Shown here piece after piece: positions 1 through 15,900 of a stretch of 64,000 nt of DNA. The position numbers and the translations under genes are program-made. Below the pieces are notes generated by a model. The model saw only the letters and a program-made list of their open reading frames with translations. It had not been told where the DNA came from and made no database searches. Where the stretch lies: NCBI RefSeq assembly GCF_000297055.2, contig NC_022357.1, positions 868,001 to 932,000 of the forward strand, in the 5' to 3' direction. This DNA is from Sulfuricella denitrificans skB26 (GTDB taxonomy: Bacteria; Pseudomonadota; Gammaproteobacteria; Burkholderiales; Sulfuricellaceae). Within the stretch, counting starts at the first letter, position 1. Each line of letters starts with the position of its first letter.

Positions 1-1
1 C

Positions 2-154
2 GAATACGAGCGGACCGAACGCGAAGTCCATCGCATCGAAGTGGAAGACGTACCGGTTTCCGATATCCTGATCGAGGACCTGAAAAAGAAACGGCTGCAC
101 CTGAAGGACGAGATTTATGCCCTGCTGCGCAACGGGGGTGTCCCGGCGCATTGA
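2..154 (+). CDS. DUF465 (YdcH-like) protein, C-terminal part
   Basis: An open frame enters the window at base 2 and stops with TGA at 152-154, giving about 50 C-terminal residues. The tail reads LKKKRLHLKDEIYALLR, the basic helix typical of the small alpha-helical DUF465/YdcH family, preceded by a charged HRIE segment that matches the middle of that family. The family is usually about 70-80 residues, so most of the protein is visible and only the start lies outside. Function is unknown for the family. Spacing to the next gene is 22 bases on the same strand. Confidence 0.65.
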   Translation, partial: EYERTEREVHRIEVEDVPVSDILIEDLKKKRLHLKDEIYALLRNGGVPAH

Positions 155-176
155 GCCGTGATGGGGTGCTGAAGCC

Positions 177-605
177 ATGAGGCTGTGGACGCTGCATCCC
201 CAATACCTGGATGCCCAGGGTCTGGTCGCTGTGTGGCGAGAAGCCCTGCTGGCGCAGAAGGTGTTGCTGGGCCAGACCCGCGGTTACCGCAACCATCCCC
301 AGTTGGCGCGCTTCCGAGTACTGGACTGTCCGGTGGCCGGTATCGCTTCCTACCTTGCCGGGGTACACGCAGAGGCGCTGCGCCGCAGTTACCACTTTGA
401 TGCGAGCAAAATCGTTGCGCCCCGCTGGCTGGGGAAAATCGAGGCGACTACTGGCCAGCTGGCTTACGAATGGACTCATTTGTGCCGCAAACTCGCTTTG
501 CGCGATCCCGCTCGGCTGGCCGAATTTTCAAATGTAGAGATACCTGAAGCGCATCCCCTGTTTTGTGTCGTGGAAGGCGGCATCGTATCGTGGGAAAAAA
601 TCTGA
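177..605 (+). CDS. Pyrimidine dimer DNA glycosylase family protein
   Basis: This 142-residue protein starts with MRLWTLHPQYLD and continues with GLVAVWREALLAQKVL and GYRNHPQL, the hallmark segments of the Pyr_excise family (PF03013). That family is annotated as pyrimidine-dimer DNA glycosylase by distant relation to phage T4 endonuclease V. If the annotation holds, it would cleave the glycosidic bond of UV photodimers in the cytoplasm. The family assignment comes from recognisable motifs; the enzymatic role is inherited and not shown by the sequence. The ATG at 177 gives the canonical N terminus. The end of the gene precedes the likely start of the DNA ligase gene at 623 by 17 bases, so two DNA-repair-type genes are adjacent. 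Confidence 0.7.
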   Translation: MRLWTLHPQYLDAQGLVAVWREALLAQKVLLGQTRGYRNHPQLARFRVLDCPVAGIASYLAGVHAEALRRSYHFDASKIVAPRWLGKIEATTGQLAYEWTHLCRKLALRDPARLAEFSNVEIPEAHPLFCVVEGGIVSWEKI

Positions 606-622
606 CCGCAATTCTAAAAAAC

Positions 623-1555
623 ATGAAGCTATACATGATAGGGTGGACGCGCATCGCGGGTATTGTCTTGCGCAGTCGCGGTTGGGCATTGCCAGTACCT
701 GTGCTTTTTGCCTTATGCCTTCAGCTTGTTATGCAGGCGCCCGTAGCTCGCGCGGCGGATTTCCCGCCGCCACCCGTGATGCTGGCGAATGTCTATCGCA
801 GCGGCACGCCGCTGGCCGACTATCTGGTCAGCGAGAAACTGGACGGGGTACGCGGTTACTGGGACGGCGAAAAGCTGCTGACGCGCGGCGGGGAACGCAT
901 CGAGGCGCCCGGATGGTTCACTGCAGGGTGGCCTGATTTCCCCCTGGACGGCGAGCTGTGGGTCGGACGAGGGCAGTTTGCCAGTGCCGTATCCATCGTG
1001 CGGCAGCGGACGCCGGATGACGCTGCCTGGCGTACGCTGAGTTTCATGGTGTTCGATCTGCCGGGTCATCCGGGATCCTTCGCTGAACGAAACACGGCGC
1101 TGAAACCCTTGCTTGCCGGGCTTGCGCTGCCCTGGGTGCGCCCGGTGGAGCAGTTCAGGGTGGCCGACCGGGCCGGATTGCGCATCGCGTTCGACCGGGT
1201 CGTCAAGAACAGGGGTGAAGGGTTGATGCTCCATCGCGCCGCATCCCTTTACCAGGCAGGGCGCAGCGATGACCTGCTCAAGCTGAAACCGTATCAGGAT
1301 GCTGAAGCCAAGGTCATCGCGCATCTGCCGGGCAAGGGCAAGCACCAGGGGGTGCTCGGCGCCTTGCTGGTAGAAACGGCGGCGGGGCTGAGATTCCGTA
1401 TCGGAACGGGGTTTTCCGATGCGCAACGTCGAAACCCGCCTGCGCCGGGAAGCTGGGTGACGTATCGCCATATCGGACTGAACGAAGAAAGCGGTATTCC
1501 CCGCTTTGCCAGTTTCATGCGGGTGCGGGAGGATATTCCCGGCGGGGAGAGGTAG
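623..1555 (+). CDS. ligE: ATP-dependent DNA ligase with signal peptide (LigE type)
   Basis: The adenylation motif is visible as SEKLDGVRGYWDG, with the nucleophilic Lys in EKLDGVR. It is followed by a DGELW motif, VFDLPG, and the later EGLMLH and LLKLKPY segments of ATP-dependent ligases. An OB-fold-like tail follows (about 310 residues in total). The N terminus has a hydrophobic stretch ending in an ARA-AD signal-peptidase-like site, so the protein is probably exported, as described for the minimal LigE ligases of Gram-negative bacteria that seal nicks in periplasmic or incoming DNA. The ATG at 623 was chosen because an upstream start at 563 would overlap the preceding gene and bury the signal peptide; 635 is an alternative. 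Confidence 0.8.
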   Translation: MKLYMIGWTRIAGIVLRSRGWALPVPVLFALCLQLVMQAPVARAADFPPPPVMLANVYRSGTPLADYLVSEKLDGVRGYWDGEKLLTRGGERIEAPGWFTAGWPDFPLDGELWVGRGQFASAVSIVRQRTPDDAAWRTLSFMVFDLPGHPGSFAERNTALKPLLAGLALPWVRPVEQFRVADRAGLRIAFDRVVKNRGEGLMLHRAASLYQAGRSDDLLKLKPYQDAEAKVIAHLPGKGKHQGVLGALLVETAAGLRFRIGTGFSDAQRRNPPAPGSWVTYRHIGLNEESGIPRFASFMRVREDIPGGER

Positions 1556-1759
1556 ACGTCGTGGGTTAGTTCACTAACTTGTTGGGCCGCTTGGTGCGAA
1601 TTGCAGACGACTTCGGTGCTCCAATACAACCCGGCCGATAGGCCGCTTAGCATCTATTTTCCGGCATTGAACCATCCCCCTCGGGTCAGGAAGTCGAACC
1701 TGTCCATAGCACCACGACTGGCTAACTCTCCGCTAATTCTCTATTGCTACCTTTACAAC

Positions 1760-1781
1760 CACGCGAATATCCGCGTGTTTT
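1760..1781 (+). terminator. Hairpin plus TTTT just before the PepSY gene ribosome site
   Basis: CACGCG at 1760-1765 pairs with CGCGTG at 1772-1777 across a 6-base loop, followed by TTTT at 1778-1781. Next comes the ribosome site GAAGGAG (1782-1788) of the PepSY gene. It could end ligE transcription or act as a leader hairpin controlling the downstream operon. The stem is only 6 bp, so a terminator function is uncertain. The rest of 1556-1759 holds nothing I recognise. Confidence 0.4.
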
Positions 1782-1796
1782 GAAGGAGTGATCAAC

Positions 1797-2129
1797 ATGA
1801 AACGCAAATTCTATCTGACCGCGCTCGCCGCGCTTTCCGCCACCGCCATTGGCACAGCCTATGCGGCCAAGGCGATCGAGAACGATGCCCTGGCGATCGA
1901 AACTGCAAAAATCAGTCTGACTCAGGCCGTCACTGTCGCCGAGCAACAGATCGGCGGCAAGGCGTCCCGCGCCGAGTACGAGAAGCACAAGGGCCAGTGG
2001 ATCTTCGATGTCGAGGTGGTGAATGGCAAGAAGGTCATGGATGTGAAGGTCGACCCGATGAGCGGCAAGGTCATCGCTGCCACCGAGGACAAGGCCGACC
2101 ACGACGACGACCATGACCAAGCCGACTGA
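1797..2129 (+). CDS. Periplasmic PepSY-domain protein
   Basis: A 110-residue protein with a clear signal peptide (lysine/arginine start, hydrophobic core, cleavage near AYA-AKA). One PepSY domain follows: LTQAVTVAEQQIGGKASRAE, then a WIFDVEVVNGKKVMDVKVD strand pair and the closing DPMSGKVI. The C terminus is rich in Asp and His (HDDDHDQAD), which could bind metal. The ATG at 1797 lies 8 bases after AGGAG; a GTG at 1788 overlaps that ribosome site and is rejected. PepSY proteins of this size are commonly encoded next to two-component systems, and here the operon continues into two membrane proteins, a regulator and a kinase. A role as periplasmic sensor accessory is inference. Confidence 0.8.
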   Translation: MKRKFYLTALAALSATAIGTAYAAKAIENDALAIETAKISLTQAVTVAEQQIGGKASRAEYEKHKGQWIFDVEVVNGKKVMDVKVDPMSGKVIAATEDKADHDDDHDQAD

Positions 2130-2218
2130 TCGGTCTGACTGTAATGCCGGGGCGGCAATGCTGCTCCGGCTTGTCGCCTGAACAAACCAGCACCACGGCA
2201 ACTGACGGGAGAATACAA

Positions 2219-2998
2219 ATGAGAATACTCGCGCGCGACGATGCGATTCAAATGCTGAACAAGGTGCCAGAAGTCACGCTGTACTTCTGGATTATCAAGA
2301 TCATGGCCACCACGGTTGGCGAGACCGGGGCCGATTTTCTCAACTTCGACCTGAATTTCGGGCTGACCGGGACATCAGTCTTCATGGCCGGTCTGCTGGT
2401 GGTTTTTCTGTTCATGCAGTTGCGTTCCCGGAAATACGTGCCGTGGTTGTACTGGGTGAACGTCGTGCTCATCAGCATTTTAGGCACCCTCATCACCGAC
2501 AATCTGGTGGACAACTTCGGGGTCGCCCTGGAGATGACGACGGCAGGTTTCGGTTTGGCCCTGTTGGTGACCTTTGCTCTCTGGTATGCCAGTGAAAGAA
2601 CGCTGTCGATTCACTCCATCTTCACGACCAGGCGAGAGCTGTTCTACTGGGTGGCCATCCTGTTCACGTTTGCCCTCGGTACGGCGGCAGGAGATCTCGT
2701 TGCCGAGAGTATGAAACTCGGTTACGCGAACTCGGCGCTGATGTTCGGCACGATGATTGTAGCCGTCACCATTGCCTATTACGGTTTCAAGGCCAATGCC
2801 GTTCTGGCCTTCTGGATCGCCTACATCCTGACACGTCCGTTGGGCGCCTCCTGCGGTGACTGGCTGTCGCAACCCATCGCCAACGGCGGCCTGGGGCTGG
2901 GCACGGTAACAACAAGTCTGATCTTTCTCTTGACCATTCTAGGCTTGGTGGTTTTCCTGAGCGTCACCCGCAAAGACGTGACGCCCCGGACGGCCTGA
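2219..2998 (+). CDS. COG4705 family membrane protein, first copy
   Basis: A 259-residue, very hydrophobic protein with about eight transmembrane segments. It begins, after a short cytoplasmic stretch, with KVPEVTLYFWIIKI, typical of the uncharacterised COG4705 family. I see a fourfold internal repeat of the pattern [FY]-W-x9-G-x4-D at residues 23-39, 78-94, 143-159 and 198-214. This suggests four two-helix units, each placing an Asp after a conserved Gly. The ATG at 2219 is preceded by GGGAG at a sensible distance; the upstream in-frame extension has no family similarity. The next gene is a paralogue. Transport or ion binding is possible but not shown; function unknown. Confidence 0.8.
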   Translation: MRILARDDAIQMLNKVPEVTLYFWIIKIMATTVGETGADFLNFDLNFGLTGTSVFMAGLLVVFLFMQLRSRKYVPWLYWVNVVLISILGTLITDNLVDNFGVALEMTTAGFGLALLVTFALWYASERTLSIHSIFTTRRELFYWVAILFTFALGTAAGDLVAESMKLGYANSALMFGTMIVAVTIAYYGFKANAVLAFWIAYILTRPLGASCGDWLSQPIANGGLGLGTVTTSLIFLLTILGLVVFLSVTRKDVTPRTA

Positions 2999-3101
2999 CC
3001 TCATCGGAGAGGAGCATCGCTTCCGCTCCGCTGGCGCGCTGGCTGCAACGCCCCTACCAAAGGGTATTTTCCGGTTTGATCGAGAAAGGATGAGTGAGAC
3101 A

Positions 3102-3923
3102 ATGAATGCAAGCAACCATGGATTTCGTATGGACGATTCCGCCAAACAGGCATTGAGCAAGGTTCCGGAAGTTACGTTGATGTTCTGGATCATCAAGATT
3201 GCTGCCACCACCCTGGGTGAAACCGGCGGCGATGCCGTTTCGATGTCGATGAATCTGGGCTACCTGGTCGGCACGGGAATATTTGCGGCAATTTTTTTGG
3301 TGGCGGTAGCTGCCCAGATCAGGGCGAAGCACTTTCACCCGTTCCTCTACTGGACGACCATCATCGCCACCACCACCGTCGGCACGACGCTGGCGGACTT
3401 CGCCGACCGCTCCCTCGGTATAGGCTACACGGGTGGAGCGAGTCTGCTCTTTGTGCTGCTGATGGCATCCCTGGCAATTTGGTACAAAACGCTGGGATCC
3501 GTCTCGGTGGATAGTGTCGGGTCTCCGAAGTCGGAAATGTTCTACTGGGTGACCATCATGTTTTCCCAGACGCTCGGCACCGCGCTGGGCGACTGGACGG
3601 CGGATACAGCAGGGCTTGGTTATGAGGGCGGCGCGATCGTGTTCGGCGCCTTGTTGCTGATCGTCGTCTCGGCTTACCTCTGGACCCGAATCTCCCACAC
3701 GATGCTATTCTGGGCTGCGTTCATCCTGACTCGCCCGCTGGGCGCGGTGGTCGGGGATTTTCTGGACAAGCCTGTCGCGTCAGGTGGATTGGCATTGAGC
3801 CGCTATACCGCGTCGGCGGTGTTGCTGGCGTTCATCATTTTGTCCATCGCTCTGTTCCGGCAACGGCCAGCCAGACACAAGCCCAAGCCCTCAATCAACG
3901 AAGTTTTGTTGGCGCACGGATGA
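3102..3923 (+). CDS. COG4705 family membrane protein, second copy
   Basis: A 273-residue paralogue of the preceding gene. It again starts with SKVPEVTLMFWIIKI and carries four copies of [FY]-W-x9-G-x4-D: FWIIKIAATTLGETGGD, YWTTIIATTTVGTTLAD, YWVTIMFSQTLGTALGD and FWAAFILTRPLGAVVGD. The C-terminal tail is longer and basic. The ATG at 3102 follows AAAGGA by 11 bases. The ATG at 3090 overlaps that same ribosome site, so the later start is preferred. The tandem arrangement suggests a heteromeric membrane complex or two related transporters. The downstream response regulator begins 20 bases after the stop, so the genes are probably co-transcribed. Function unknown. Confidence 0.8.
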   Translation: MNASNHGFRMDDSAKQALSKVPEVTLMFWIIKIAATTLGETGGDAVSMSMNLGYLVGTGIFAAIFLVAVAAQIRAKHFHPFLYWTTIIATTTVGTTLADFADRSLGIGYTGGASLLFVLLMASLAIWYKTLGSVSVDSVGSPKSEMFYWVTIMFSQTLGTALGDWTADTAGLGYEGGAIVFGALLLIVVSAYLWTRISHTMLFWAAFILTRPLGAVVGDFLDKPVASGGLALSRYTASAVLLAFIILSIALFRQRPARHKPKPSINEVLLAHG

Positions 3924-3943
3924 AGGCGGGGGAGTACCGAATA

Positions 3944-4606
3944 ATGCGAATTTTGCTAGTCGAAGATGACCCGATGATCGGTGAAGCGGTGTCAGTAGCC
4001 CTCAAGGATGCTGCCTATGCCGTGGATTGGGTGCTTGATGGTGTGGCGGCCGACACCGTTCTGCGCGACGGCGAGCATCAGGCCGTTCTGCTCGACCTAG
4101 GGCTGCCCAAGCGTGACGGACTCGAAGTGCTGCGGCGATTGCGGCAGGGCGGCAATGGAGTACCGGTCATCGTTATTACCGCCCGCGATGGCGTAGATGA
4201 CCGGATCAAGGGACTCGATTTCGGCGCCGACGATTACCTCATGAAGCCGTTCGACCTGAATGAATTACTGGCCCGGCTACGTGCGGTTATCCGCCGCCAA
4301 GGCGGGCAGGCCGCGCCCCTGCTGAGCAACGGCAAACTCAGTCTAGATCCTGCCACGCGCGAGGCACGCTGCGGCGAAGCCGTGGAACTGCTCAGCGCAC
4401 GCGAGTTTGCCCTCTTGCATGCGCTGCTCCTTCGCCCCGGTACAATCCTGGGCCGGGCCGAGTTGGAGGAGCGCATTTATGGCTGGAATGAAGAGGTCGA
4501 AAGCAATGCCGTGGATTTCCTGATCCATGGTATCCGCAAAAAGCTCGGCGCCGATGTCATCAAGAACATACGCGGCGCCGGCTGGATGGTGGATCGAGCG
4601 ACATGA
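3944..4606 (+). CDS. OmpR-family response regulator
   Basis: A 220-residue two-domain regulator. The receiver domain has the acidic pair E7-D8-D9, the phospho-acceptor D51 in LLDLGLPK, the conserved Thr in VIVITARD and Lys in YLMKPF. The C-terminal winged-helix domain shows LLSAREFALLHALLLRPG and IRKKLGADVIKNIRGAGWMV, which resembles the QseB/PmrA/TctD subgroup. The ATG at 3944 is preceded by GGGGGAG. The stop codon overlaps the kinase start (ATGA at 4603-4606), so the partners are translationally coupled. It most likely regulates this operon, including the PepSY and COG4705 genes; that is inference from position. Confidence 0.9.
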   Translation: MRILLVEDDPMIGEAVSVALKDAAYAVDWVLDGVAADTVLRDGEHQAVLLDLGLPKRDGLEVLRRLRQGGNGVPVIVITARDGVDDRIKGLDFGADDYLMKPFDLNELLARLRAVIRRQGGQAAPLLSNGKLSLDPATREARCGEAVELLSAREFALLHALLLRPGTILGRAELEERIYGWNEEVESNAVDFLIHGIRKKLGADVIKNIRGAGWMVDRAT

Positions 4607-5898
4607 ATCGGTCACTGCAACGTCATCTGTCACTGATGCTGGGTGCGGCCATTCTGTTGTCCGGCATGATTGCTGCCGTAGCCTCCTTCATGTTGGCGTA
4701 TGGCGAAGCCAAGGAGTTCCAGGACGACATGCTGCGACAGATTGCTGTCCTTGCCGTCAAGGGTGCCGCAGAACCCGCGCAGCCGGGCAAGAGCGATGTC
4801 GCCCTCAACGACCCGGAGTCCCGCATTCTGGTCGTCAGGTTGACTGGAAATCCTCGCCCGGAATGGCTGCCAGAGCATTTGTCAGTCGGATTTCATACCT
4901 TGAGCGCCAAAGGCGAGGAGCTACGAGTCTTTGTTCACGATGGATCATCGGGGGAGCGAGCCGTTGTCGCCCAGCCAACCGATGCACGCGACGAAATCGC
5001 CATCAACAGCGCCCTGCGGACGCTGATTCCCTTGCTCCTCCTGTTCCCACTGCTGACCTGGCTGATTGTGCGCATCATCCGCCGAGAATTTACGTCGGTC
5101 GCCCGGATCTCTCGCAGTCTGGATGCACAGACGGCGAATCGCCCCAGTCCCATTGACGAGGAAGGGCTGCCGAATGAAATCATACCCTTCGTCCAAGCCA
5201 TCAACCGCTTGCTGGTGCGAATCAATCAGCTGATGAGCCAGCAGCAGCGCTTTATTGCCGATGCTGCCCATGAACTACGCAGCCCACTGGCCGCCCTGTC
5301 CATGCAGGCGCAGAATCTGCGTCAGGCGAACTCGCTGGAGGTCATGCACGAACGCGTCGCGCCCTTACAGGCTGGCATCGAACGCGCCCGCCAACTCACC
5401 GAGCAGTTGCTAAATCTGGCCAGGACCCAGGCAGATGGCAGCACGGAAAGCGTTGTGGACGTATCTGCCTTGACCCGTGAACTGATTGCACAATACCTGC
5501 CTGCTGCTGAGGCCAAGGACATCGATCTGGGCCTTGAGGAAGGCAATCGGTATTCATTACGAGCATCGCCGGAGTCGCTACGATTGATTCTCGGCAACGC
5601 GCTGGAAAACGCCATCAAATACACACCTGCCGGCGGCGAGGTGACGTTGCGGATCACAGCCGATGGGGGCATGGCCGTTATCGAGGTGGTCGATAGTGGC
5701 ACCGGGATTCCACCCGCGGAACGCGACCGCGTCTTTGATGCTTTCTATCGGATGCCCGGTGCTACCGGCACTGGCAGCGGACTTGGCTTGGCCATAGCAC
5801 GGGAGGCCGCCACTCGCCTGGGTGGCGAGATCAACCTGAAAGAGCGCCCAGACGGCCCAGGGTTGATCTTCAGCTACCGGCAAAGGCAGCCAACGTGA
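4603..5898 (+). CDS. Sensor histidine kinase
   Basis: A 431-residue membrane kinase. Transmembrane segments lie at about residues 10-33 and 140-160, flanking a roughly 105-residue periplasmic sensor. A HAMP-like linker follows, and then the H box FIADAAHELRSPLAAL with phospho-acceptor H223. The ATP-binding domain has the N box (LGNALENAIKYTP), G1 (DSGTGIP), F-box region and G2 (GSGLGLAIA). It overlaps the regulator by 4 bases upstream and the DedA gene by 4 bases downstream. The signal is unknown; the PepSY protein upstream is a candidate periplasmic partner. The architecture is like QseC/PmrB kinases. Confidence 0.9.
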   Translation: MNRSLQRHLSLMLGAAILLSGMIAAVASFMLAYGEAKEFQDDMLRQIAVLAVKGAAEPAQPGKSDVALNDPESRILVVRLTGNPRPEWLPEHLSVGFHTLSAKGEELRVFVHDGSSGERAVVAQPTDARDEIAINSALRTLIPLLLLFPLLTWLIVRIIRREFTSVARISRSLDAQTANRPSPIDEEGLPNEIIPFVQAINRLLVRINQLMSQQQRFIADAAHELRSPLAALSMQAQNLRQANSLEVMHERVAPLQAGIERARQLTEQLLNLARTQADGSTESVVDVSALTRELIAQYLPAAEAKDIDLGLEEGNRYSLRASPESLRLILGNALENAIKYTPAGGEVTLRITADGGMAVIEVVDSGTGIPPAERDRVFDAFYRMPGATGTGSGLGLAIAREAATRLGGEINLKERPDGPGLIFSYRQRQPT

Positions 5899-6467
5899 TT
5901 GGCTCTTTCGTTGCGTCATATGGGTATCTGGCGGTTTTTGCCGGCACGCTGCTGGAAGGGGAAACTATTCTGATCGCTGCTGGCTTCGCCGCCCATCGTG
6001 GCCTGCTTGACTTACCTATCGTGATCCTGGTGGCCATGTTCGGAGGCACGCTGGGCGATCAGTTGGCCTTCGTGCTTGGGCGCTGGAAAGGCGATGTGCT
6101 GATCGAACGCTTTCCTGCACTGGCAATGCACAAGCCGCGTGTTCATGAGCTGCTTGAGCGCCACGCAATCCTGTTCATCCTGACAGTTCGCTTTCTCTAT
6201 GGACTCAGGATCGCTGGGCCGGTATTGCTGGGTTCGAGTCGTGTTCCGATGCTCCACTTTGCCATACTGAATTTGATCGGTGCTGGGTTGTGGGCGTCGG
6301 TGGTGTCAGGAGCGGGTTATCTGTTCGGACAGGCGATCAATGCGCTGATCACCGACCTCAAACACATCGAGGAAGCCGTGCTGATCGCGATACTACTCGG
6401 CGGAGGCTTGGTGTGGTTTTGGCGGAAGGCCCGTTCGCACGCACGTGGCTCCCCGGATATCGAATGA
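5895..6467 (+). CDS. DedA/VTT-family membrane protein
   Basis: A 190-residue integral membrane protein of the DedA (SNARE-associated/VTT) family. It shows the early LLEGETILIAAGFAA re-entrant region, GGTLGDQLAFVLGRWKGD, and the signature RFLYGLRIAGPVLLGSS with the conserved arginines. DedA proteins act in membrane homeostasis, and some are undecaprenyl-phosphate or phospholipid translocases linked to cationic peptide resistance. It starts with GTG at 5895, overlapping the kinase stop (GTGA), so it belongs to the same operon. Its presence supports an envelope-stress role for the two-component system; that is inference. Confidence 0.85.
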   Translation: MIGSFVASYGYLAVFAGTLLEGETILIAAGFAAHRGLLDLPIVILVAMFGGTLGDQLAFVLGRWKGDVLIERFPALAMHKPRVHELLERHAILFILTVRFLYGLRIAGPVLLGSSRVPMLHFAILNLIGAGLWASVVSGAGYLFGQAINALITDLKHIEEAVLIAILLGGGLVWFWRKARSHARGSPDIE

Positions 6468-6478
6468 GGTAGGCGGTC

Positions 6479-6895
6479 ATAAGTTGGCAATGGTTTGCGC
6501 TGGGTTCGGCATTTTTTGCTGGACTGACGGCGATCTTCGGAAAGCTCGGGGTCGAAGGTTTGAACTCCAATCTCGCCACCTTGATTCGGGCGGTAATCAT
6601 CCTCGGAATGACAGCAGCCATCGAGATGCTCCGTTGCGAATGGTCGTTCTCCAATGGGCTGGAAGTTCTGTGACCTTTTTAGTCCTTTCAGCCCTTGCAA
6701 CGGGATTTTCCTGGCTGTTTTACTACCGCGCGCTCCAGATGGCCCCCGCCTCACTGGTAGCGCCAATCGACAAACTGAGAGTGGCTTTTGCCATCGTTCT
6801 CGGCGTTATATTTCACGGCGAGGTTCTTTTGGTAAAACTGGTGCTGGGGGGGGCTGTTGATACTTGTCGGGGTGCTGATTCTTGCTTGGCCTTGA
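6479..6895 (+). pseudogene. Decayed EamA/DMT-family transporter (frameshifted)
   Basis: Read across two frameshifts, the segment encodes a single EamA-type half transporter of about 140 residues. The pieces are SWQWFALGSAFFAGLTAIFG...EGLNSNLATLIRA in one frame, LVLSALATGFSWLFYYRALQ...VAPIDKL in a second, and LLILVGVLILAWP back in the first. The lesions are an apparent one-base deletion near 6660-6670 and an extra G in the G8 run at 6846-6853. The expected start is ATA (6479-6481) with a stop just upstream, so no normal start codon remains. Three independent lesions argue for decay rather than sequencing error. It lies directly behind the DedA gene. Confidence 0.75.
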
Positions 6896-7035
6896 GAAAC
6901 CGGGATGTCAGCTTGCGTGGCGTAGTCTGCCAGTGGATATGCCAATGGCAATAGACGGGTATGGGTTGGGATGGTAATTCGCAAGATTTTGAATTAAGGC
7001 ACTGCCCGTCAGTTCAATTCCCAACGTCTACAATA

Positions 7036-7058
7036 CACCCCTCACCCCTCACCCCATC
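7036..7058 (+). repeat. Short CCCCTCA-type heptamer run
   Basis: About three heptamers of the ACCCCTC kind lie 24 bases upstream of the MFS transporter start. They resemble one arm of the inverted heptamer arrays seen elsewhere in the window, but a convincing opposite arm is missing. The surrounding 6896-7081 region shows nothing else I can name. Confidence 0.4.
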
Positions 7059-7081
7059 CGTGGCGTGTTAAAATTCGGCCT

Positions 7082-8218
7082 ATGCATTCCATCCCATACT
7101 GGCGTCTCTCCGGCTTCTACTTCTTCTATTTCGCGTTTGTCGGCGCGATGGCTCCATTCTGGGGGCTGTACCTCCAATCGCTGGCATTTAACGCGTTCCA
7201 GATCGGCGTGCTGATGTCGCTGCTGCAGGTGATGCGGATTTTCGCGCCGAATCTCTGGGGCATGGTGGCTGACCGCACCGGCAAGCGCGTTGCCATCGTC
7301 CAGATTGCTGTCGGCTTGAGTCTGCTGAGCTTTATTCCGGTATTCTTCAATTCCAGCTTCGCCTGGCTGTTTGTGGCGATGTCGCTGATGAGCTTTTTCT
7401 GGAGCGCTTCCCTGCCGCTGGTGGAGGCGACTACCCTCAGCCATCTCGGCGAAAAAACCTCAAAATACGGGCGCATCCGGTTGTGGGGCTCGGTTGGCTT
7501 CATTGCCGCGGTGATCGGGCTGGGCTTTCTGTTCGACTATGTGGCGATCCGCTGGTTGCTGTGGGCAGTGCTGGCTATCTTGGCCGCGCTGCTGCTGTTC
7601 TCGCGCCACATTCCGGAGGCGGTGGTGGTGCCTCATCACACAGACCATCTGCCGATCTGGCACATCATTCGTCGCCCTGAAGTGCTGGCTTTTATCGGCG
7701 CCGGTTTTCTGATGGCGGCAGCGCACGGCGCTTATTACACTTTTTATTCGATCTACCTGGTCGATCATGGTTACGCCAAGAGCAGTGTCGGCCTGCTGTG
7801 GTCGCTTGGGGTGCTGTGCGAGATCGGTGTGTTCCTGTGGATGCCGCGTCTGCTGCGCAGCGTGTCGCTGCGCCAGGTGTTGCTGGCCAGTCTCGCCCTC
7901 GCCGTGTTGCGCTTTCTGATGATTGGCTGGGGGGTGGGCTGGATTGCCGTGATCGTCGTTGCCCAGTTGCTCCACGCGGCTACTTTCGGCGCCTATCATT
8001 CGGCGGCGGTGGAAATGGTGCACCGCTTTTTCAAAGGCAGGCATCAGGCCCAAGGGCAGGCGCTCTACAACAGTGTGTCGTTCGGGGCGGGAGGGACGCT
8101 GGGCGGGCTGTATAGCGGCTTGGCCTGGGAGACGCTGGGGCCGAATGTGACGTTTACGATCGCGGCCGCTTTCGCTTTGGCGGCGTTTGGGCTGGTGGCT
8201 TGGAAGTTGAGATTGTAG
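7082..8218 (+). CDS. MFS transporter, LacY/HcaT-like
   Basis: A 378-residue permease with about twelve transmembrane segments. The N-terminal YWRLSGFYFFYFAFVGAMAPF and the loop motif GMVADRTGKRVAI (MFS motif A between helices 2 and 3) identify the MFS_1_like group, which includes the 3-phenylpropionate transporter HcaT and nucleoside/LacY-like carriers. YGRIRLWGSVGFI is another conserved segment of that group. The substrate cannot be deduced. It lies between the decayed EamA gene and leuC on the same strand, with gaps of 186 and 90 bases, and is probably its own transcription unit. Confidence 0.8.
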   Translation: MHSIPYWRLSGFYFFYFAFVGAMAPFWGLYLQSLAFNAFQIGVLMSLLQVMRIFAPNLWGMVADRTGKRVAIVQIAVGLSLLSFIPVFFNSSFAWLFVAMSLMSFFWSASLPLVEATTLSHLGEKTSKYGRIRLWGSVGFIAAVIGLGFLFDYVAIRWLLWAVLAILAALLLFSRHIPEAVVVPHHTDHLPIWHIIRRPEVLAFIGAGFLMAAAHGAYYTFYSIYLVDHGYAKSSVGLLWSLGVLCEIGVFLWMPRLLRSVSLRQVLLASLALAVLRFLMIGWGVGWIAVIVVAQLLHAATFGAYHSAAVEMVHRFFKGRHQAQGQALYNSVSFGAGGTLGGLYSGLAWETLGPNVTFTIAAAFALAAFGLVAWKLRL

Positions 8219-8308
8219 GGAAGCATAACAAGTCCCGTTTTCGTCTTGCAACTATCCGATTTGCCAAGAAATATGCCATAATTTCTGTTTTTCGACGTCT
8301 AGTCAGTC

Positions 8309-9715
8309 ATGAGCGCACAAACCCTTTATGATAAGTTATGGCAGTCCCATGTGGTGCACACCGAGTCGGATGGCACCACGCTGCTTTACATCGACCGCCA
8401 CCTGCTGCATGAAGTGACCAGCCCGCAGGCCTTCGAGGGCTTGCGTCTGGCCGGGCGCAAGCCGTGGCGCCTGAGCGCCAACCTGGCGGTGGCCGATCAC
8501 AATGTGCCGACTACCGGTCGTGCCCAGGGCATCGCCGACCCGATTTCGCGTCTTCAGGTGGAAACCTTGGACGACAACTGCGCCAGTTTCGGAATTACCG
8601 AATTCAAGATGGGTGATGTGCGCCAGGGCATTGTTCACGTCATTGGTCCGGAGCAAGGTGCAACCTTGCCGGGGATGACGGTGGTGTGCGGCGATTCGCA
8701 TACCAGCACGCATGGCGCATTCGGAGCCTTGGCCCATGGTATCGGCACCAGCGAAGTCGAACACGTGCTTGCTACCCAATGTTTGCTGCAGAAGAAATCC
8801 AGAACCCTGCTGGTCAGGGTGGAGGGATCTTTGGGCAAGGGAGCTACTGCCAAGGACATTGCTCTGGCGGTGATAGGCAAGATCGGAACAGCAGGCGGCA
8901 CCGGCTATGCCATCGAGTTTGGTGGCTCGGCGATCCGCGCGCTTTCCATGGAAGGACGCATGACCTTGTGTAACATGGCGATCGAGGCGGGCGCCCGTGC
9001 CGGCATGGTGGCGGTGGACGACACTACGATCAATTACATCAAGGGTCGTCCCTTTGCGCCCAAGGGCGAGTTGTGGGACAAAGCGGTGGCCAACTGGCAT
9101 ACCCTGGTGAGCGATGAAGGTGCGGATTTCGATGCGGTGGTCGAGATCGATGCTGCCGCCATCAAGCCCAGCGTAACTTGGGGTACATCGCCGGAAATGG
9201 TGGTTACGGTGGACGGCAAGGTGCCCGATCCGGCGCAGGAGTCCGATCCGGTCAAGCGTTCCGGCATGGAACGGGCGCTGGTTTACATGGGGCTGCAGGC
9301 GAATACGCCGATCACGCAGATTGCCGTGGACAAGGTGTTTATCGGTTCCTGCACCAATTCCAGGATAGAGGACTTGCGCGGTGCGGCGAAAATCGTCAAG
9401 GGCAAGCACAAGGCGGCGAATGTCATGCAGGTGCTGGTGGTGCCAGGTTCCGGGCTAGTCAAGCAGCAGGCTGAGGCAGAAGGCCTGGACAAGATTTTTA
9501 TCGAGGCGGGTTTTGAATGGCGCGATCCCGGTTGCTCGATGTGTCTGGCGATGAATGCCGACCGGCTGGAGCCGGGCGAGCGTTGCGCTTCCACCTCCAA
9601 CCGCAACTTCGAAGGGCGGCAGGGTCCGGGTGGACGAACCCATCTGGTCAGTCCGGAGATGGCTGCGGCTGCGGCAATTGCCGGGCATTTCATGGATATT
9701 CGGGATTGGTTGTAA
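8309..9715 (+). CDS. leuC: 3-isopropylmalate dehydratase large subunit
   Basis: A 468-residue aconitase-family protein. The iron-sulfur cysteines appear in [10 protein letters not shown] and in the pair [13 protein letters not shown]. Substrate-site segments [12 protein letters not shown] and [12 protein letters not shown] are intact. With LeuD it isomerises 2-isopropylmalate to 3-isopropylmalate in leucine synthesis. Full length and typical start ([16 protein letters not shown]). It opens the leuC-leuD-leuB-asd run. No strong ribosome site precedes the ATG. Confidence 0.97.
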
Positions 9716-9737
9716 CAACACGTTTAAGGAAATTGCC

Positions 9738-9788
9738 ATGGCGAAGAAATTGATTGCATTACTGTCTATTCAGAAGGCAGTGAAGTAA
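9738..9788 (+). CDS. Tiny ORF between leuC and leuD, possible entericidin remnant
   Basis: ATG at 9738, preceded by AAGGA at a 7-base spacing, opens a 16-codon frame (MAKKLIALLSIQKAVK) ending in TAA at 9786-9788, immediately abutting the leuD ATG. In several betaproteobacteria an entericidin-type small lipoprotein gene sits at this spot, with an MKKLIALL-like signal peptide and a GKDIQKAG-like tail. This peptide looks like the two ends of such a gene joined by an internal deletion. The good ribosome site and exact abutment also allow a role in coupling translation of leuD. The remnant reading is inference from memory of neighbouring genomes. Confidence 0.35.
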   Translation: MAKKLIALLSIQKAVK

Positions 9789-10427
9789 ATGGAAAAATTT
9801 ACCCGGTTGGACGGGTTGGTGGCGCCACTGGATCGTGCCAACGTCGATACCGACGCGATCATCCCCAAGCAGTTCCTGAAGTCCATCAAGCGCAGCGGCT
9901 TCGGCCCGAACCTGTTCGACGAGTGGCGCTATCTCGACCACGGCGAACCGGGACAGGATTGCAGCAACCGTCCGCTCAACAAGGATTTCGTGCTCAATCA
10001 GCCGCGCTATCAGGGTGCGCAAATCCTGCTGGCGCGTGAGAACTTCGGTTGCGGTTCAAGTCGCGAACATGCGCCGTGGGCGCTGCTGGACTACGGTTTT
10101 CTCGCTGTCATCGCGCCCAGTTTCGCCGATATTTTCTTCAACAACTGCTTCAAAAATGGCATTCTGCCGATAGTGGTGGATGCCGAAGAAATCGACCGCC
10201 TGTTCAATGAAACAGTGGCGGCCGAAGGCTACCGCCTGGCGGTGGATCTGGAGCAGCAGTTGGTCACCACGCCGGACGGGCATGGGATCAGCTTCTCGGT
10301 AGATCCTTTCCGCAAATATTGCCTGCTTAACGGCCTGGATGATATCGGCCTGACCTTGCAGAACGCGGACAAGATCAAGGCGTATGAAGAGCGGCGTAAA
10401 GTCGAAACACCGTGGTTGTTTTCATGA
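9789..10427 (+). CDS. leuD: 3-isopropylmalate dehydratase small subunit
   Basis: A 212-residue LeuD with the usual [14 protein letters not shown] start region, [19 protein letters not shown] active-site segment and F-A-D-I-F-F-N-N-C stretch. It partners LeuC in the leucine pathway. The start codon directly follows the stop of the 16-codon ORF. Its own TGA (10425-10427) is directly followed by the left arm of an inverted heptamer array that fills the gap to leuB. Confidence 0.97.
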
Positions 10428-10500
10428 GTGAGGAGTGAGGGGTAAGGTGTTAGAAGCGGATTCCCGCTCTACTCCTCACTCCTCACTCCTTACTCCTTAC
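10428..10500 (+). repeat. Inverted heptamer array between leuD and leuB
   Basis: The left arm is four heptamers, GTGAGGA, GTGAGGG, GTAAGGT, GTTAGAA (10428-10455). The right arm is ACTCCTC twice and ACTCCTT twice plus AC (10471-10500). The arms are largely complementary and could form a stem of about 28 bp around a short loop that is itself palindromic (AGCGG...CCGCT). It begins at the leuD stop and ends 12 bases before the leuB start, so it would lie inside the operon mRNA. Confidence 0.85.
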
Positions 10501-10512
10501 AAGGATTAAGAA

Positions 10513-11577
10513 ATGAGAATCGCAGTTTTGCCGGGTGACGGCATTGGTCCGGAAATCGTCGCTCAGGCGGTCAAGGTACTGAAGGCACTGTCCAGCGATG
10601 GCGTGAAAATCGAGATGGAAGAAGCGCCGATCGGTGGGGCGGGTTATGACGCGGCGGGCGATCCGCTACCGGCGGCCACCCTCAAGCTGGCGCAGGATGC
10701 CGATGCCGTGCTGCTGGGTGCGGTTGGCGGCTGGAATTACGACACCCTGCCGCGCCCGATGCGGCCGGAGCAGGGCTTGCTGCGCATCCGCAAGGAACTC
10801 AATCTGTTTGCCAACCTGCGCCCGGCATTGCTTTACCCTGAACTGGCCGATGCTTCCAGTCTCAAGCCTGAAGTGGTGTCCGGCCTCGACATCATGATCG
10901 TGCGTGAGCTGACCGGCGATATCTACTTCGGCCAGCCGCGCGGCATCCACATCAATGCCAACGGCGAGCGCGAGGGCTTCAATACGATGCGCTACTCGGA
11001 GTCTGAAATCCGCCGCATCGGGCATGTCGCTTTCGATATCGCCAGCAAGCGCAATCGCAAGGTTTGCTCGGTGGACAAGGCCAACGTGCTGGAAACCACC
11101 GAACTGTGGCGCCAAATTATGATCGAAGTGGCAAAGGACTACCCGGATGTCGAGCTTTCCCACATGTATGTGGACAACGCGGCGATGCAATTGGTGCGTG
11201 CGCCCAAGCAGTTCGATGTGATCGTGACCGGCAACATATTTGGCGACATCCTGTCCGACGAGGCGTCGATGCTGACCGGTTCCATCGGCATGCTGCCTTC
11301 GGCTTCCCTGGACAGCAACAACAAGGGCATGTACGAGCCCAGCCACGGTTCCGCGCCGGATATCGCCGGGCAGAACATCGCCAACCCGCTCGCGACCATC
11401 CTGTCGGCGGCGATGATGATGCGCTATACCTTCAACAGTGAAGAAGTGGCGCAGCGCATTGAAAATGCGGTAAAGAAGGTGCTGGCCAATGGTTTACGCA
11501 CCTCTGACATCTGGACCGAAGGGTCGCGCAAGGCGTCGTGCAGCGAGATGGGTGATGCCGTAGTGGCAGCGCTGTAA
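10513..11577 (+). CDS. leuB: 3-isopropylmalate dehydrogenase
   Basis: A 354-residue isocitrate/isopropylmalate dehydrogenase family protein. It has the N-terminal [11 protein letters not shown], the substrate-binding [38 protein letters not shown] and the [14 protein letters not shown] nucleotide-binding region. It oxidises and decarboxylates 3-isopropylmalate with NAD+. The ATG at 10513 follows AAGGATTAAGAA. The repeat array upstream may affect its expression relative to leuCD. Confidence 0.97.
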
Positions 11578-11610
11578 AGAATTTGATTATCCAAGATTGA
11601 GGAAAGAAAA

Positions 11611-12723
11611 ATGATGCGAGTAGGTTTGGTTGGCTGGCGCGGCATGGTGGGTTCGGTGCTGATGCAGCGAATGCGCGAAGAAAAAGATTTCGATCATTTC
11701 GAGCCGGTGTTCTTTACTACCTCCAACCCGGGCGGCAAGGGTCCGGATATCGGCAGGGATGTTCCGCCGCTGAAGGACGCCAGGGACATCGCCGAACTCA
11801 AGGCAATGGATGCCATTATTTCCTGCCAGGGCGGCGACTACACCAAGGAAGTGTATGGCGACCTGCGCGCTGCCGGCTGGAATGGCTACTGGATCGACGC
11901 CGCTTCCACCCTGCGCATGAAGGACGACGCTATCATCATCCTCGACCCGGTCAACAAGAACGTGATCAAGGACGGATTGACCAAGGGAGTGAAGACTTAC
12001 GTTGGCGGTAACTGCACGGTTTCGCTGATGCTGATGGCGATCGGCGGGCTGTTCGACAAGGGCCTGATCGAGTGGATCAGCCCGATGACCTACCAGGCCG
12101 CTTCAGGGGCCGGCGCACGTAACATGCGTGAGTTGATTCAGCAAATGGGTGCCATCGACAGCGAAGTGAAAGCGCTGGTAAACGACCCGGCCTCGGCGAT
12201 CCTGGAGATCGACCGGAAAGTGGCGGAGTTCATTCGCTCCGACCGCTATCCCGTGGATGCCTGGCCAGTGCCGCTGGCCGGTTCGCTGATTCCGTGGATC
12301 GACGTGGCGCTTGAGTCCGGTCAGAGCAAGGAGGAGTGGAAGGCGCAGGTCGAGTGCAACAAGATCCTTGGCCGCAGCGGCAACCAGATCCCCATCGACG
12401 GCCTGTGCGTGCGCATCGGCGCGATGCGCTGCCACAGCCAGGCGCTGACTATCAAGATGAGCAAGGATGTGCCGCTGGATGAGATTCACGCCATCATCGG
12501 CGCGCACAACGACTGGGTGAAAGTGGTACCCAACGACCGCGAAATTACCATGAAAGATCTTACTCCTGCGGCAGTGACTGGCACGTTGACCGTACCGGTT
12601 GGCCGTATGCGCAAGCTCAATATGGGTCCGCAGTACCTGTCGGCATTTACCGTCGGCGACCAGTTGCTGTGGGGTGCGGCCGAACCTTTGCGCCGCATGC
12701 TGCGAATTCTGATCGAAGAGTGA
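11611..12723 (+). CDS. asd: Aspartate-semialdehyde dehydrogenase
   Basis: A 370-residue enzyme that reduces aspartyl phosphate to the semialdehyde feeding lysine/peptidoglycan, threonine and methionine. The N-terminal [21 protein letters not shown]-binding loop, active-site Cys in [10 protein letters not shown], and catalytic His region [15 protein letters not shown] are present. This is the Gram-negative (E. coli-like) type. It lies 33 bases behind leuB and is followed by a clear intrinsic terminator, so it ends the leuCDB-asd unit. dapB, using its product, is encoded at 57439. Confidence 0.97.
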
Positions 12724-12735
12724 ACAGCGATTTCT

Positions 12736-12784
12736 AGCCCCAACCGGTACGATGACAGTGGTATCGATTGGGGCTTCGTTTTTT
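12736..12784 (+). terminator. Intrinsic terminator after asd
   Basis: AGCCCCAA (12736-12743) pairs with TTGGGGCT (12769-12776), and CCGGTAC/GTATCG can extend the stem. TTCG and a six-T run at 12779-12784 follow. It lies 12 bases past the asd stop. Confidence 0.8.
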
Positions 12785-12928
12785 CCGGTTGATTTGGCCA
12801 TGTTGAGGTTACAAACTTGTAATTAATCTATCTACTTACAGCCCAATGTAACATGCAGTTTTAGCTTGCATCCCTAACTTCATGATGTTAATTTAGTTAG
12901 CCTAGCCAAAAAATCTAATGAGGGTGGC

Positions 12929-15900
12929 ATGGATCGAAAATTTAAGAAAACAGCTTGGTTGACTGCCGGAGTGATGCTGGCGGCATCTCTCCCCGCCTTT
13001 GCGGCTGGGTTGGGCAAGTTGACGGTGATGTCAACCCTGGGGCAACCGTTCAGGGGGGAAATTGACCTGCTTGCGGTGGACAAGAAAGACTTCGGCTCAA
13101 TTCGTGCCCGTTTTGCCTCCTTCGAGGCTTTTAAGGAGGCGAAAATAGAGCGTGTCTCCGTACTTTCTGCCATGCGCTTCAGTGTGGAGCAGAAAAAAAA
13201 CGGCGAGCCCTATCTCAAGATTACCTCCACAAAACCTGTAGACGAACCCTTCCTGGATATGCTGATCGAGCTCGATTGGCCCGCCGGTCGTCTGGTCCGT
13301 GAATACACCATCCTGCTTGACCCTCCCGGTTACGGTGCGCAGCAGGCAGAAACTTCGCCGGTAGCCGTTCCGGTGGTCAAACCTGCTTCAGCTGCGCCTG
13401 CGCAGGCAGCGGCAGTTGCGGCTCAACCGGCTGATGCGCCGAGTGGTGCTGAAAAGCCGGAAATCAGGGCGAATATTCCCCCGGACCAGAAGCTGCGGGC
13501 AAAAGATGAAGCGAAGGCTGAAATTGCCGGAGAGGGTAAGCCTGCAAAGGAAGCCTATGGCCCAGTCAGGAAGGGCGAGAATCTATCGGGCATAGCTTCT
13601 GCTTTGAAGCCAGAGGGCGTCAGTCTGGAGCAGATGCTGGTCGCATTGTTTCAGTCTAACAAGCAGGCGTTTTCTGGCAACAACATGAACCGGTTGAAGG
13701 CAGGCCAGATTCTGCGCGTGCCTGAGGCCGGGCAAGTCGAAGAGCTGAAAGCGAACGAGGCCGCCAAGCAGGTGCGAGCGCATTCCGCCGATTGGCATGC
13801 ATACCGTCAGAAGCTGGCGGCTGCCGTCTCCGAGGCTAAGCCGGTGCAGGAAGACACGGCCAGGCAGGCAGTAAGCGGCAAGATAACCACCGCAGTGGAA
13901 GACAAGGCCACTGCAGCGAAAGAATCCGCCACGGATGTTCTCAAGCTGTCCAAGAGTGAAGGCATGGGTGGAGCAAAGCCGGGCGCGGCTGTTGGTGGCA
14001 AGGACATGCAGGCGATGAAGGGGCAGATCCAGGCCCTGCATGAAGAAGCCACGGCCAAGGAAAAGGCAATCATTGAGGCCAACCAGCGCATCTCCGACCT
14101 GGAAAAGAACATCAAGGAAATGCAGAAGTTGCTGGAGCTGAAAAATCAGAGCCTGTCGGATCTGCAGAAACAAGCTGCCGCAACCAAGGTAGCGCCGGCG
14201 GCATTGCCTGCCCCCGCGCCTGTTGTGCCAGTAGTGGCCAAGCCTGAAGAAAAGCCTGCCGCTCCCGCTACAGAGCAGCAAGTTGCGGTTGCGGTCGCAG
14301 AAAAATCCCCCCTGGCTGAAGAAAAACCCGCCGTCGAGCCGAAGAAACCCAAACCGGTCCTCGTTGAGCAGAAGAAGCCGGAAGCATCCTTCCTCGATGA
14401 AGCGATGGGAAACCCGATCTATCTGGGTGGCGGCGCAGTGGCAATATTGTTGCTAGGCCTGCTGGGTGTGAAAGCGGTTGTGGCTAGACGCAAGAAAAGC
14501 GTTGCCAGTTTCGAAGACAGCATAATGACCCATGGTGATCTCAAGGCCAACACGGTTCTGGGCGGTACCGGCGGCGGCAAGATAGACACCAGTGACACCT
14601 CGTTTTTGACAGATTTCAGCCAAGCCGGATTAGGGTCGATTGATACCAACGAAGTTGATCCCATCGCCGAGGCTGAGGTCTACATGGCCTACGGCCGTGA
14701 TGCGCAGGCGGAAGAGATCCTCAAGGAAGCGCTGCTCAAGGACCCCAATCGTCACGAAATTCGCCTCAAGCTGCTGGAGATTTATGTCGGCCGCAAAAAT
14801 CTGAATGCCTTCGAAGCCGTTGCTGGAGAAATGTATGCCGCGCTCGGCGGTCAGCCCAGCCCGGTCTGGGACAAGGCGGCCGAAATGGGCCGTACCCTGG
14901 ATCCGAAGAACCCGCTCTATGGCGAGCAATCGAAAGCAGCCGCTGCAATGAAGCCTGCCGCCTCCGGTGATGAGGCATTTGAAAAGACCATGGTTGTGGC
15001 TGGTGGCACTGCGGGTCTGGTCGCGGCGGCAGAGCATGGTGCCGCCATGGATTTGGGTGGTCCTGAGATTGTTGAGGAAGCCGTTGGGACAGACCTGGAT
15101 TTCAATCTCGACATCGCAGCGCCGGAAGCCGAAGCCATTCCTGATGTACTCCTGGAACTCCCTGAGGAGAGCCTGCCCGTTGAGGAAACAGCTACCGATC
15201 TAGGGTTCGACCTCGATCTGGATGTGCTGACTGAAGCGAGTGATCAAGATGAGCAATCTGCGGCCGCACCAGTTGTCGAGACAGAAGAGCCGGTTGCCGA
15301 CCAGGGACTGGATTTCAATCTTGATCTGGGTGTTCCAACCGTTGCCGACGTTGCACCAGAACCGGCTGCGGCAGTCATGGAGTCGGATGAGAACGTGATG
15401 GAGTTCGATCTTGGCGCGCCGACTCAGGCGGCTCCTGCCGCATCTGCCGAGGAATTGATCAGCGCCGAGAGTTGGAAAGACGAAGTGATGGGGCTCGATG
15501 TCGGTGGATTGACCACCGCCCCCGACGCTGAGGATGAGATGGCGGAAGTCGGGGACAACCTGGATATGCCCGATTTCTCCGTTGAAGAGGAAGCTGCATC
15601 TGCGGGTGAAGAGATGGAGTCCATCGAACTTGCTGCTCTTCCCGTTGAAGAGTCTCCGCTGGATTTCGATTTCAGTCTGGATCAGGAGGAAACCCGTGCA
15701 CCCGCCGAATCAAAAGGTGTGGCTGTTCCGGACCTTGACCTTTCAGGTATCAGCCTGGATATGAGCGAGCCTGGTTCGGAAAAAGTGGCGTCTATCGATT
15801 CGCCGGATGATTTCGGCGGTCAGGAAGTTTCGACCAAGCTGGATCTGGCGAGAGCCTACGTCGACATGGGCGATGTGGAAGGTGCGCGGGATATTTTGCA

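Follow-up and report, generated by a model that had tools for sequence, protein, structure and literature searches.

The cargo of Tn6048 of Cupriavidus metallidurans is the mmf cluster, which comprises mmfA (PepSY protein), mmfB (undecaprenyl pyrophosphate, or UPP, phosphatase), mmfC1 and mmfC2 (DUF347 proteins), mmfD (secreted protein), mmfR, mmfS, and eamA (PMC4914505, PMC12029693; here and below, papers are cited for those passages of them that were available). This cargo is reported to be strongly induced by zinc/lead (PMC2864759, PMC12029693), C. metallidurans is reported to have three mmf copies, and the annotated plasmid pHB44 carries its genes in the same order as the mmf cluster. Here we analyze a locus in a 64,000-nucleotide stretch of Sulfuricella denitrificans skB26 (NC_022357.1, positions 868,001 to 932,000; the window) that, on sequence grounds, is a relative of this cluster and a variant of it: the order is mmfA, mmfC1 (encoding protein A), mmfC2 (protein B), mmfR, and mmfS, followed by a DedA gene and a broken eamA (Table 1). 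To the known cluster we add an operator-like direct repeat, the history of an mmfB deletion, a split between the C1 and C2 types of DUF347 protein, and statistics on neighboring genes. Our preferred reading, held tentatively and at a little short of an even chance, is that the mmf module is a self-regulated, metal-responsive envelope system in the style of PmrAB, in which the DUF347 proteins have a part in handling undecaprenyl/lipid phosphates.

The window has two separate DUF347 types as well as mmfA, mmfR, and mmfS, with the identities to the Tn6048 proteins given in Table 1; an intact mmfB is lacking, and mmfD gave no match in window positions 1 to 13000. No transposition genes were seen among the recognized genes of 1597 to 6961, whose open reading frames (ORFs) were scanned in part. 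An earlier note, made from the sequence without database searches, had described the neighbors of A and B as PepSY, OmpR-type regulator, kinase, and DedA genes, and Pfam agrees. That note overlooked the relics of mmfB and eamA, and its PepSY start is corrected here to the likely ATG at 1797.

Upstream of the PepSY gene lies a direct repeat with an 11-bp period, whose core is CTAA-N7-CTAA. A search of both strands of 146 loci (2.04 Mb) found 55 copies of this core, 30 of which lie no more than 300 bp upstream of a gene of the module (DUF347, 16; PepSY, 12; PAP2, 2), compared to 0.43 expected from the density elsewhere. Distances from repeat to gene are 40 to 128 bp, with one exception at 248 bp. 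Upstream of DUF347 genes, N7 occurs 16 times, while each of N3 to N6 and N8 to N15 occurs 0 to 2 times. The genome of the window contains the extended pattern once exactly (the copy in the window) and twice with one mismatch; the sister genome G010 (G and L numbers denote the genomes and loci of our samples) has one exact copy, located before its own module, and the module-free genomes G011 and G007 have none. To judge by this distribution, the repeat is operator-like and nearly private to the mmf module. The dedicated sensing/response set that the earlier note had surmised is strengthened by the single exact copy in the genome and by the zinc/lead induction reported for the Tn6048 relative.

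We also scored promoters with a matrix built from 29 sites (the L081 site was left out); its 99% background is 8.3 and its 99.9% background is 21.6, the latter perhaps raised by real sites in the random draw. The Tn6048 mmfA promoter (L041), which was outside the training set, scored 14.7 at −74, above the 99% background. Untrained promoters as a group (L041, L045, L055, L062, L069, L082, L087, and L091) have scores of 11.7 to 18.7 (positions −70 to −162), which fall between the 99% and 99.9% backgrounds. With training sites included, and with C1 and C2 genes of one locus sharing their upstream region, scores exceeded the 99% background for 29 of 44 C1 genes with a response regulator (RR) nearby and 3 of 9 without, and for 34 of 56 C2 genes with an RR nearby and 12 of 64 without. 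The best NCBIfam match of the window regulator is PmrA, at 214 bits, which fails the equivalog cutoff of 330. The exact repeat was also considered as a family-wide feature and rejected, given the viral contigs and background-score loci described below. In L044, L104, and L112, CTAA-N7-CTAA also precedes mmfR, which is divergently oriented there, and in L056 and L090 it precedes genes that we labeled by eye as encoding a DegP-like protease and a cytochrome b561-like protein, respectively.

The gene order in G010 (PepSY, A, PAP2, B, RR, histidine kinase [HK], DedA, EamA) accounts for A and B being neighbors in the window. Window positions 3004 to 3119 match the end of G010 mmfB (a PAP2 gene, 55 bits) and the start of B at 75% over 118 bp; because the 3′ end of the PAP2 gene is kept between A and B, mmfB was deleted in the window. 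Two further PAP2 matches occur elsewhere in the same genome. A and B are only 40% identical, and in a tree of 179 rows a single branch (Shimodaira-Hasegawa-like approximate likelihood ratio test [SH-aLRT] support, 100) separates a C1 set of 56, which includes A, from a C2 set of 123, which includes B. The tree was made by a quick method and has some long branches, and each row was labeled according to which of A and B gave it the higher BLAST score (L225, labeled C2, had nearly equal scores). This identity and this deep branch exclude a recent tandem duplication as the origin of A and B: the C1/C2 division is old, and the two types are often kept as a pair.

The gene set appears, from sequence comparison, to be a movable cassette. 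Its flanks, labeled by Pfam as ligase and major facilitator superfamily (MFS) genes, match G011 at 93% (24 to 1597 and 6961 to 8300), and in G002 the two genes are nearly adjacent. G011 has a different insert of ∼3 kb with a PAS/GGDEF protein at the ligase-MFS site (L240, 2232 to 4325), perhaps a local insertion hot spot. The block from 1594 to 6971 matches G010 on a contig other than the one with the G010 ligase and MFS genes, and within the genus only 2 of 12 genomes (G000 and G010) have DUF347. Since the cassette is as diverged from G010 (84 to 89%) as the flanks are (87 to 90%), the move was not a recent import from afar. A search for inverted repeats pairing the two ends of the cassette (window 1540 to 7100) found none.

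Table 1. Features of the mmf-like locus (window coordinates)
Feature	Position	Strand	Details
mmf cassette, whole	1597..6961	+	Between DNA-ligase gene and MFS gene; flanks and block compared with G011, G002, and G010
Putative operator, direct repeat CTAACTCT-CCG-CTAATTCT	1722..1740	+	11-bp period; upstream of PepSY gene
Palindrome CACGCG-AATATC-CGCGTG	1760..1777	.	Between operator and PepSY start; read by eye
Secreted PepSY protein (MmfA-like; Asp/His tail)	1797..2129	+	PF03413, E 9e-13; 67-68% to MmfA (76-83 residues aligned)
DUF347 protein A (MmfC1 type)	2219..2998	+	259 aa; four PF03988 units; 56% to MmfC1; C1 side of tree; model pLDDT 91.4
3′ relic of mmfB (PAP2 phosphatase)	3004..3091	+	Remainder deleted; 75% match to G010
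DUF347 protein B (MmfC2 type)	3090..3923	+	277 aa; four PF03988 units; 79% to MmfC2; C2 side of tree; model pLDDT 92.1
MmfR-like response regulator, OmpR/PmrA type	3920..4606	+	Likely start 3944; PF00072, PF00486; 64% to MmfR
MmfS-like histidine kinase	4603..5898	+	PF00512, PF02518; 44% to MmfS
DedA family protein	5895..6467	+	PF09335, E 4e-16; same place in G010
eamA relic	6473..6876	+	Two EamA hidden Markov model (HMM) stretches in different frames; 46-53% identity; G010 copy open, EamA 74 bits

Because its EamA matches fall in two frames, eamA is broken in the window. Palindromes much like the one next to the putative operator are kept in several relatives, L034, L035, L038, L046, L058, L072, and L073 among them. 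No Rfam family reached its gathering score in window 1 to 9000, and no sigma-70-like promoter was found in 1550 to 7100.

We surveyed DUF347 neighborhoods with HMMs from annotated seeds, comparing families found less than 4 kb from DUF347 (near) to those at 4 to 8 kb (far), in 80 genome-contig loci (taken as the best of 583 confirmed loci, with a bias toward C2), 42 whole-genome loci, and 25 plasmid regions hand-picked for diversity. The far zone amounts to 492 versus 592 kb (83%) for the 80 loci and 277 versus 312 kb (89%) for the 42; L040 and L047, which nearly duplicate L041 and L046, were kept here and dropped from the type counts and repeat analyses. Near versus far counts for the genome-contig loci were 14 versus 1 (PAP2), 19 versus 1 (PepSY), 37 versus 8 (RR), 30 versus 8 (HK), 8 versus 0 (mmfD), 5 versus 1 (EamA), 2 versus 0 (BacA), and 2 versus 1 (DgkA). 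The whole-genome loci gave 3 versus 0 (PAP2), 6 versus 0 (PepSY), 19 versus 4 (RR), 19 versus 6 (HK), 2 versus 0 (EamA), 1 versus 0 (DgkA), and 1 versus 1 (mmfD); near DUF347 in the plasmid regions we counted PAP2 10 times, RR 17 times, and HK 13 times. PepSY and two-component genes as constant companions of the family were rejected, and the refuting observation that the earlier note had named for its own view, neighborhoods lacking these genes, applies in part: PepSY and the RR-HK pair are both missing within 4 kb at 49 of 80 genome-contig, 21 of 42 whole-genome, and 12 of 25 plasmid loci, many of them lone C2 genes; the remaining loci do have PepSY or the pair. Half of the PepSY rows near DUF347 (15 of 30) share the acidic/His tail, and the others end differently.

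Company differs by type (C1 and C2 genes of one locus are both counted, and "alone" refers to the examined stretch). The two-component pair, UPP phosphatase, and PepSY accompany, respectively, 24, 15, and 17 of the 29 C1 genes with C2 nearby; 18, 8, and 2 of the 25 C1 genes alone; and 20, 7, and 11 of the 92 C2 genes alone. UppP/PAP2 and/or DedA also stand next to DUF347 in members of Bacillota, Deinococcota, Actinomycetota, and Cyanobacteriota. Examples are Paenibacillus (UPP phosphatase, HK, RR, DUF347), Priestia (DedA, RR, HK, PAP2, DUF347), Deinococcus (UppP, DUF347, DedA), Rhodococcus (DUF347, RR, PAP2), and Aulosira (RR, HK, peptidase, DUF347, phosphoesterase). Pfam upholds five of the PAP2 labels (L176, L178, L179, L183, and L191), in three of the four non-Pseudomonadota phyla. 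None of the searched partner families was found near DUF347 in L043, L173, L180, or L189; the L173 record names a PepSY-like gene. An MmfD-like C-terminal domain, with no Pfam name, is fused to DUF347 in L178 and L185 (Priestia) and L179 (Rhodococcus), with E values of 3e-10 to 3e-17; thus, MmfD may act with DUF347.

EptA/MCR genes adjoin DUF347 in L184, L188, and L191, three loci that represent Pantoea, Methylophaga (with PAP2 and DgkA), and an Enterobacter mcr-10.1 plasmid. On the Enterobacter plasmid (L184), the gene adjoining mcr-10.1 is a C1-type DUF347 gene preceded by CTAA-N7-CTAA. Of 47 viral contigs, 28 (largely near-copies) have EptA near DUF347, as do 4 of 11 viral representatives retained at 92% (L128, L133, L142, and L172). 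In L134 and similar viral contigs (among L134 to L168), the gene for an EptA-type phosphoethanolamine transferase, which in L134 is EptA by Pfam, is divergent from the DUF347 gene. The family occurs on plasmids (259 and 256 records by two queries) and in algae (PMC9756366, PMC6249206).

The earlier note drew attention to four copies of [FY]W-x9-G-x4-D in each protein and supplied the name COG4705, a search word that retrieved no paper from the open-license literature. All eight copies are present, at residues 23, 78, 143, and 198 of A and 32, 87, 152, and 207 of B, with identical spacing (55, 65, and 55), and 20,000 shufflings of each protein gave at most one copy. The pattern is real and far beyond chance; it is no discovery, being already cataloged as the Pfam repeat PF03988 (DUF347), which A and B match in four stretches each (211 and 207 bits; curated cutoff, 28.2 bits). 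The pattern is the signature of a known family, of which A and B are ordinary members with no difference seen. Four copies of W-x9-G-x4-D occur in 100 of 101 nonredundant relatives, a count in which repeats 1 and 3 were partly forced by the fetch patterns and repeats 2 and 4 were free. A search of the phylum with the Pfam model found DUF347 in 36 of 299 genomes, our own included. Of the 36, 31 have 4, 8, or 12 units, the exceptions being G064 (9), G280 (3), G096 (2), and G086 and G147 (1 each); the last two, with single weak units, were left out of the fetched loci.

Structure models of A and B (predicted template modeling score [pTM], 0.87 each; predicted local distance difference test [pLDDT] values in Table 1) each have eight long helices with one motif per odd helix, in keeping with the four two-helix units suggested earlier. 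The two proteins are predicted to share this eight-helix, four-unit fold, in which the four odd helices would have to run the same way. Among 103 sequences, 38 helix-located residues are kept in at least 99%, 34 in odd helices and 4 in even helices, as expected if the odd helices form a common core. Loop charges suggest that both termini are inside, which would place the four Asp toward the periplasmic ends of the odd helices. Lys36, Glu44, Glu149, and Arg215 are invariant in all 103 sequences, as are the four Asp; the odd helices hold four Asp, two Glu, one Lys, and one Arg, all invariant, and His, Cys, and Met are absent from invariant or nearly invariant columns. To judge from these alignments, Lys and Arg in the core would not be predicted by an all-acid cation pore. 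Searches for relatives of known structure gave no Foldseek match in PDB at E ≤ 0.001 for A or B and no sequence profile match to PDB chains up to E 10. MFS, a label given to MmfC in print, gave no match of its Pfam profiles to A or B up to E 0.01. The best VIA-align Z scores (6.5 for B and 6.3 for A, to partial MFS rows) are within the range of common helical arrangements, so we claim neither MFS membership nor a new fold; a missing PDB relative does not make the fold new.

In the mechanism that we envisage, the kinase, with the PepSY protein and its acidic/His tail as periplasmic partner, would sense metal or metal-caused envelope damage; the regulator would bind the 11-bp direct repeat and switch the operon on; and PAP2, which this locus has lost, together with DedA and both DUF347 proteins would act on undecaprenyl phosphate or other lipid phosphates at the inner membrane. 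The outcome would be that carrier lipid is restored, or surface phosphate remodeled, after titration by metal. DUF347 would be a multipass transporter with the four odd helices as its core; that it moves lipid phosphate we infer from the company it keeps and from the Lys and Arg in the core. DedA and DUF368 proteins are C55-P (undecaprenyl phosphate) flippases (PMC12893004), and one DedA protein matters for polymyxin resistance in Pseudomonas aeruginosa (PMC12893004, PMC10127716). A more specific version, which we consider unlikely as it stands, is that DUF347, in addition to DedA and DUF368, forms a further family of undecaprenyl phosphate/other lipid-phosphate translocases, built of four two-helix units and recruited, through a PmrA-like regulator, when envelope phosphates are sequestered by metals.

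Several observations weigh against lipid-phosphate handling by a self-regulated module. DedA is near DUF347 in 0 of 80 genome-contig loci (far, 1), 1 of 42 whole-genome loci (far, 0), and 2 of 25 plasmid regions, and near versus far counts for EptA are 3 versus 1 and 0 versus 0 in the first two samples. No searched partner family lies within 4 kb in 36 of 80 genome-contig, 18 of 42 whole-genome, and 4 of 25 plasmid loci, and 52 of the 92 lone C2 genes lack any searched partner. Because the HMM seeds came partly from surveyed loci, the PAP2 and PepSY counts lean toward close relatives. In the 47 viral-contig loci, where the degenerate Tn6048-like form was not sought, 0 of 7 copies of the exact repeat are near DUF347, and upstream repeat scores are at background in L174, L178, L183, L188, and L191. 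In the open-license literature that we found, there is no assay of any DUF347 protein and no report of a tested function for the family, and nothing describes an MmfR operator or a link between DUF347 and lipids (the repeat letters themselves were not searched). The induction of Tn6048 by metal, like the literature on metals, is just as compatible with a metal exporter.

Export is indeed the chief alternative: DUF347 proteins may be exporters of divalent metal (Zn/Pb) with the four Asp as metal path, PAP2/UppP supplying phosphate that precipitates the exported metal outside. We regard this as a real possibility, if a somewhat improbable one. A Frankia paper proposes DUF347 export and reports three paralogous UppP-DUF347 operons that are up under lead stress, in an organism that the available passages do not make fully plain (PMC4531530); DUF347 has been termed a stress-associated metal transporter (PMC9756366); Tn6048 is induced by zinc/lead (PMC2864759, PMC12029693); and four Asp and two Glu are invariant in the odd helices. 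However, Lys and Arg are invariant in the same helices, His, Cys, and Met are missing from the conserved columns, and the EptA, DgkA, and PAP2 neighbors are left unexplained. Cupriavidus gilardii also grew equally with and without mmf under Cd, Co, and Zn, which other systems may mask (PMC12029693).

DUF347 proteins could instead be signaling accessories that tune an MmfS-type kinase. The linkage to RR and HK genes (24 of 29 C1 genes with C2 nearby and 18 of 25 C1 genes alone) accords with such a role, but 72 of 92 lone C2 genes have no RR-HK pair nearby and the conserved charged core inside the membrane resembles a transport or binding site; we judge it improbable. We are more skeptical about an ion channel formed by A and B as a 1:1 heteromer around a ring of four Asp, along the lines suggested by the earlier note: C1 and C2 are near each other in 29 cases and the odd helices do hold most invariants, but C1 is alone in 25 cases and C2 in 92 within the examined stretches, so neither type seems to need the other. 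Metal uptake by capture of ferrichrome-bound iron or vanadium, the hypothesis of the pHB44 authors (PMC4914505), is hardly credible, as toxic zinc/lead induction and the company of UPP phosphatases fit it poorly and the window gene set has no receptor or siderophore gene.

Lipid-phosphate handling at the envelope would give the DUF347 family a testable job. Together with the C1/C2 split, the operator-like repeat and the recurring presence of UPP phosphatases, two-component pairs, and occasionally DedA or EptA sharpen the label "metal response" into a question: is it metal or carrier lipid that is moved? Either answer bears on how bacterial envelopes are protected from metals and, through the EptA/MCR neighbors, on the setting of polymyxin resistance genes.

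Compared to the mmf cluster of Tn6048 and pHB44, the window shares the order PepSY, C1, C2, RR, HK, and eamA and has the promoter direct repeat in nearly the same place, but it retains mmfB only as a 3′ relic, has DedA before eamA, and has a broken eamA. The Frankia proposal (PMC4531530) likewise joins DUF347, UPP phosphatase, and metal stress; it differs in invoking metal export and precipitation, and its available passages include no operator or wider neighbor survey. Like DedA/UptA and DUF368/PopT, DUF347 is accompanied by UPP phosphatases and has both acidic and basic conserved membrane residues. DedA proteins of the COG0586 type, putative UndP flippases, are expected to have acidic residues at the first re-entrant tip and basic residues at the second (PMC10127716); the unaligned window DedA sequence contains Glu, Asp, and Arg residues that are candidates for these. 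DUF347 has four two-helix units instead of re-entrant helices, and its likeness to these families is one of company and residue type. The verified Klebsiella pneumoniae PmrA box consists of two head-to-tail hexamers, one of them CCTAAG, with five bases between (PMC3973317). The window repeat has this same geometry (hexamer-N5-hexamer, head to tail), with half-sites of CTAA type in both positions and one exact copy in the genome, and EptA-type genes, as a further likeness to PmrAB, neighbor some DUF347 relatives.

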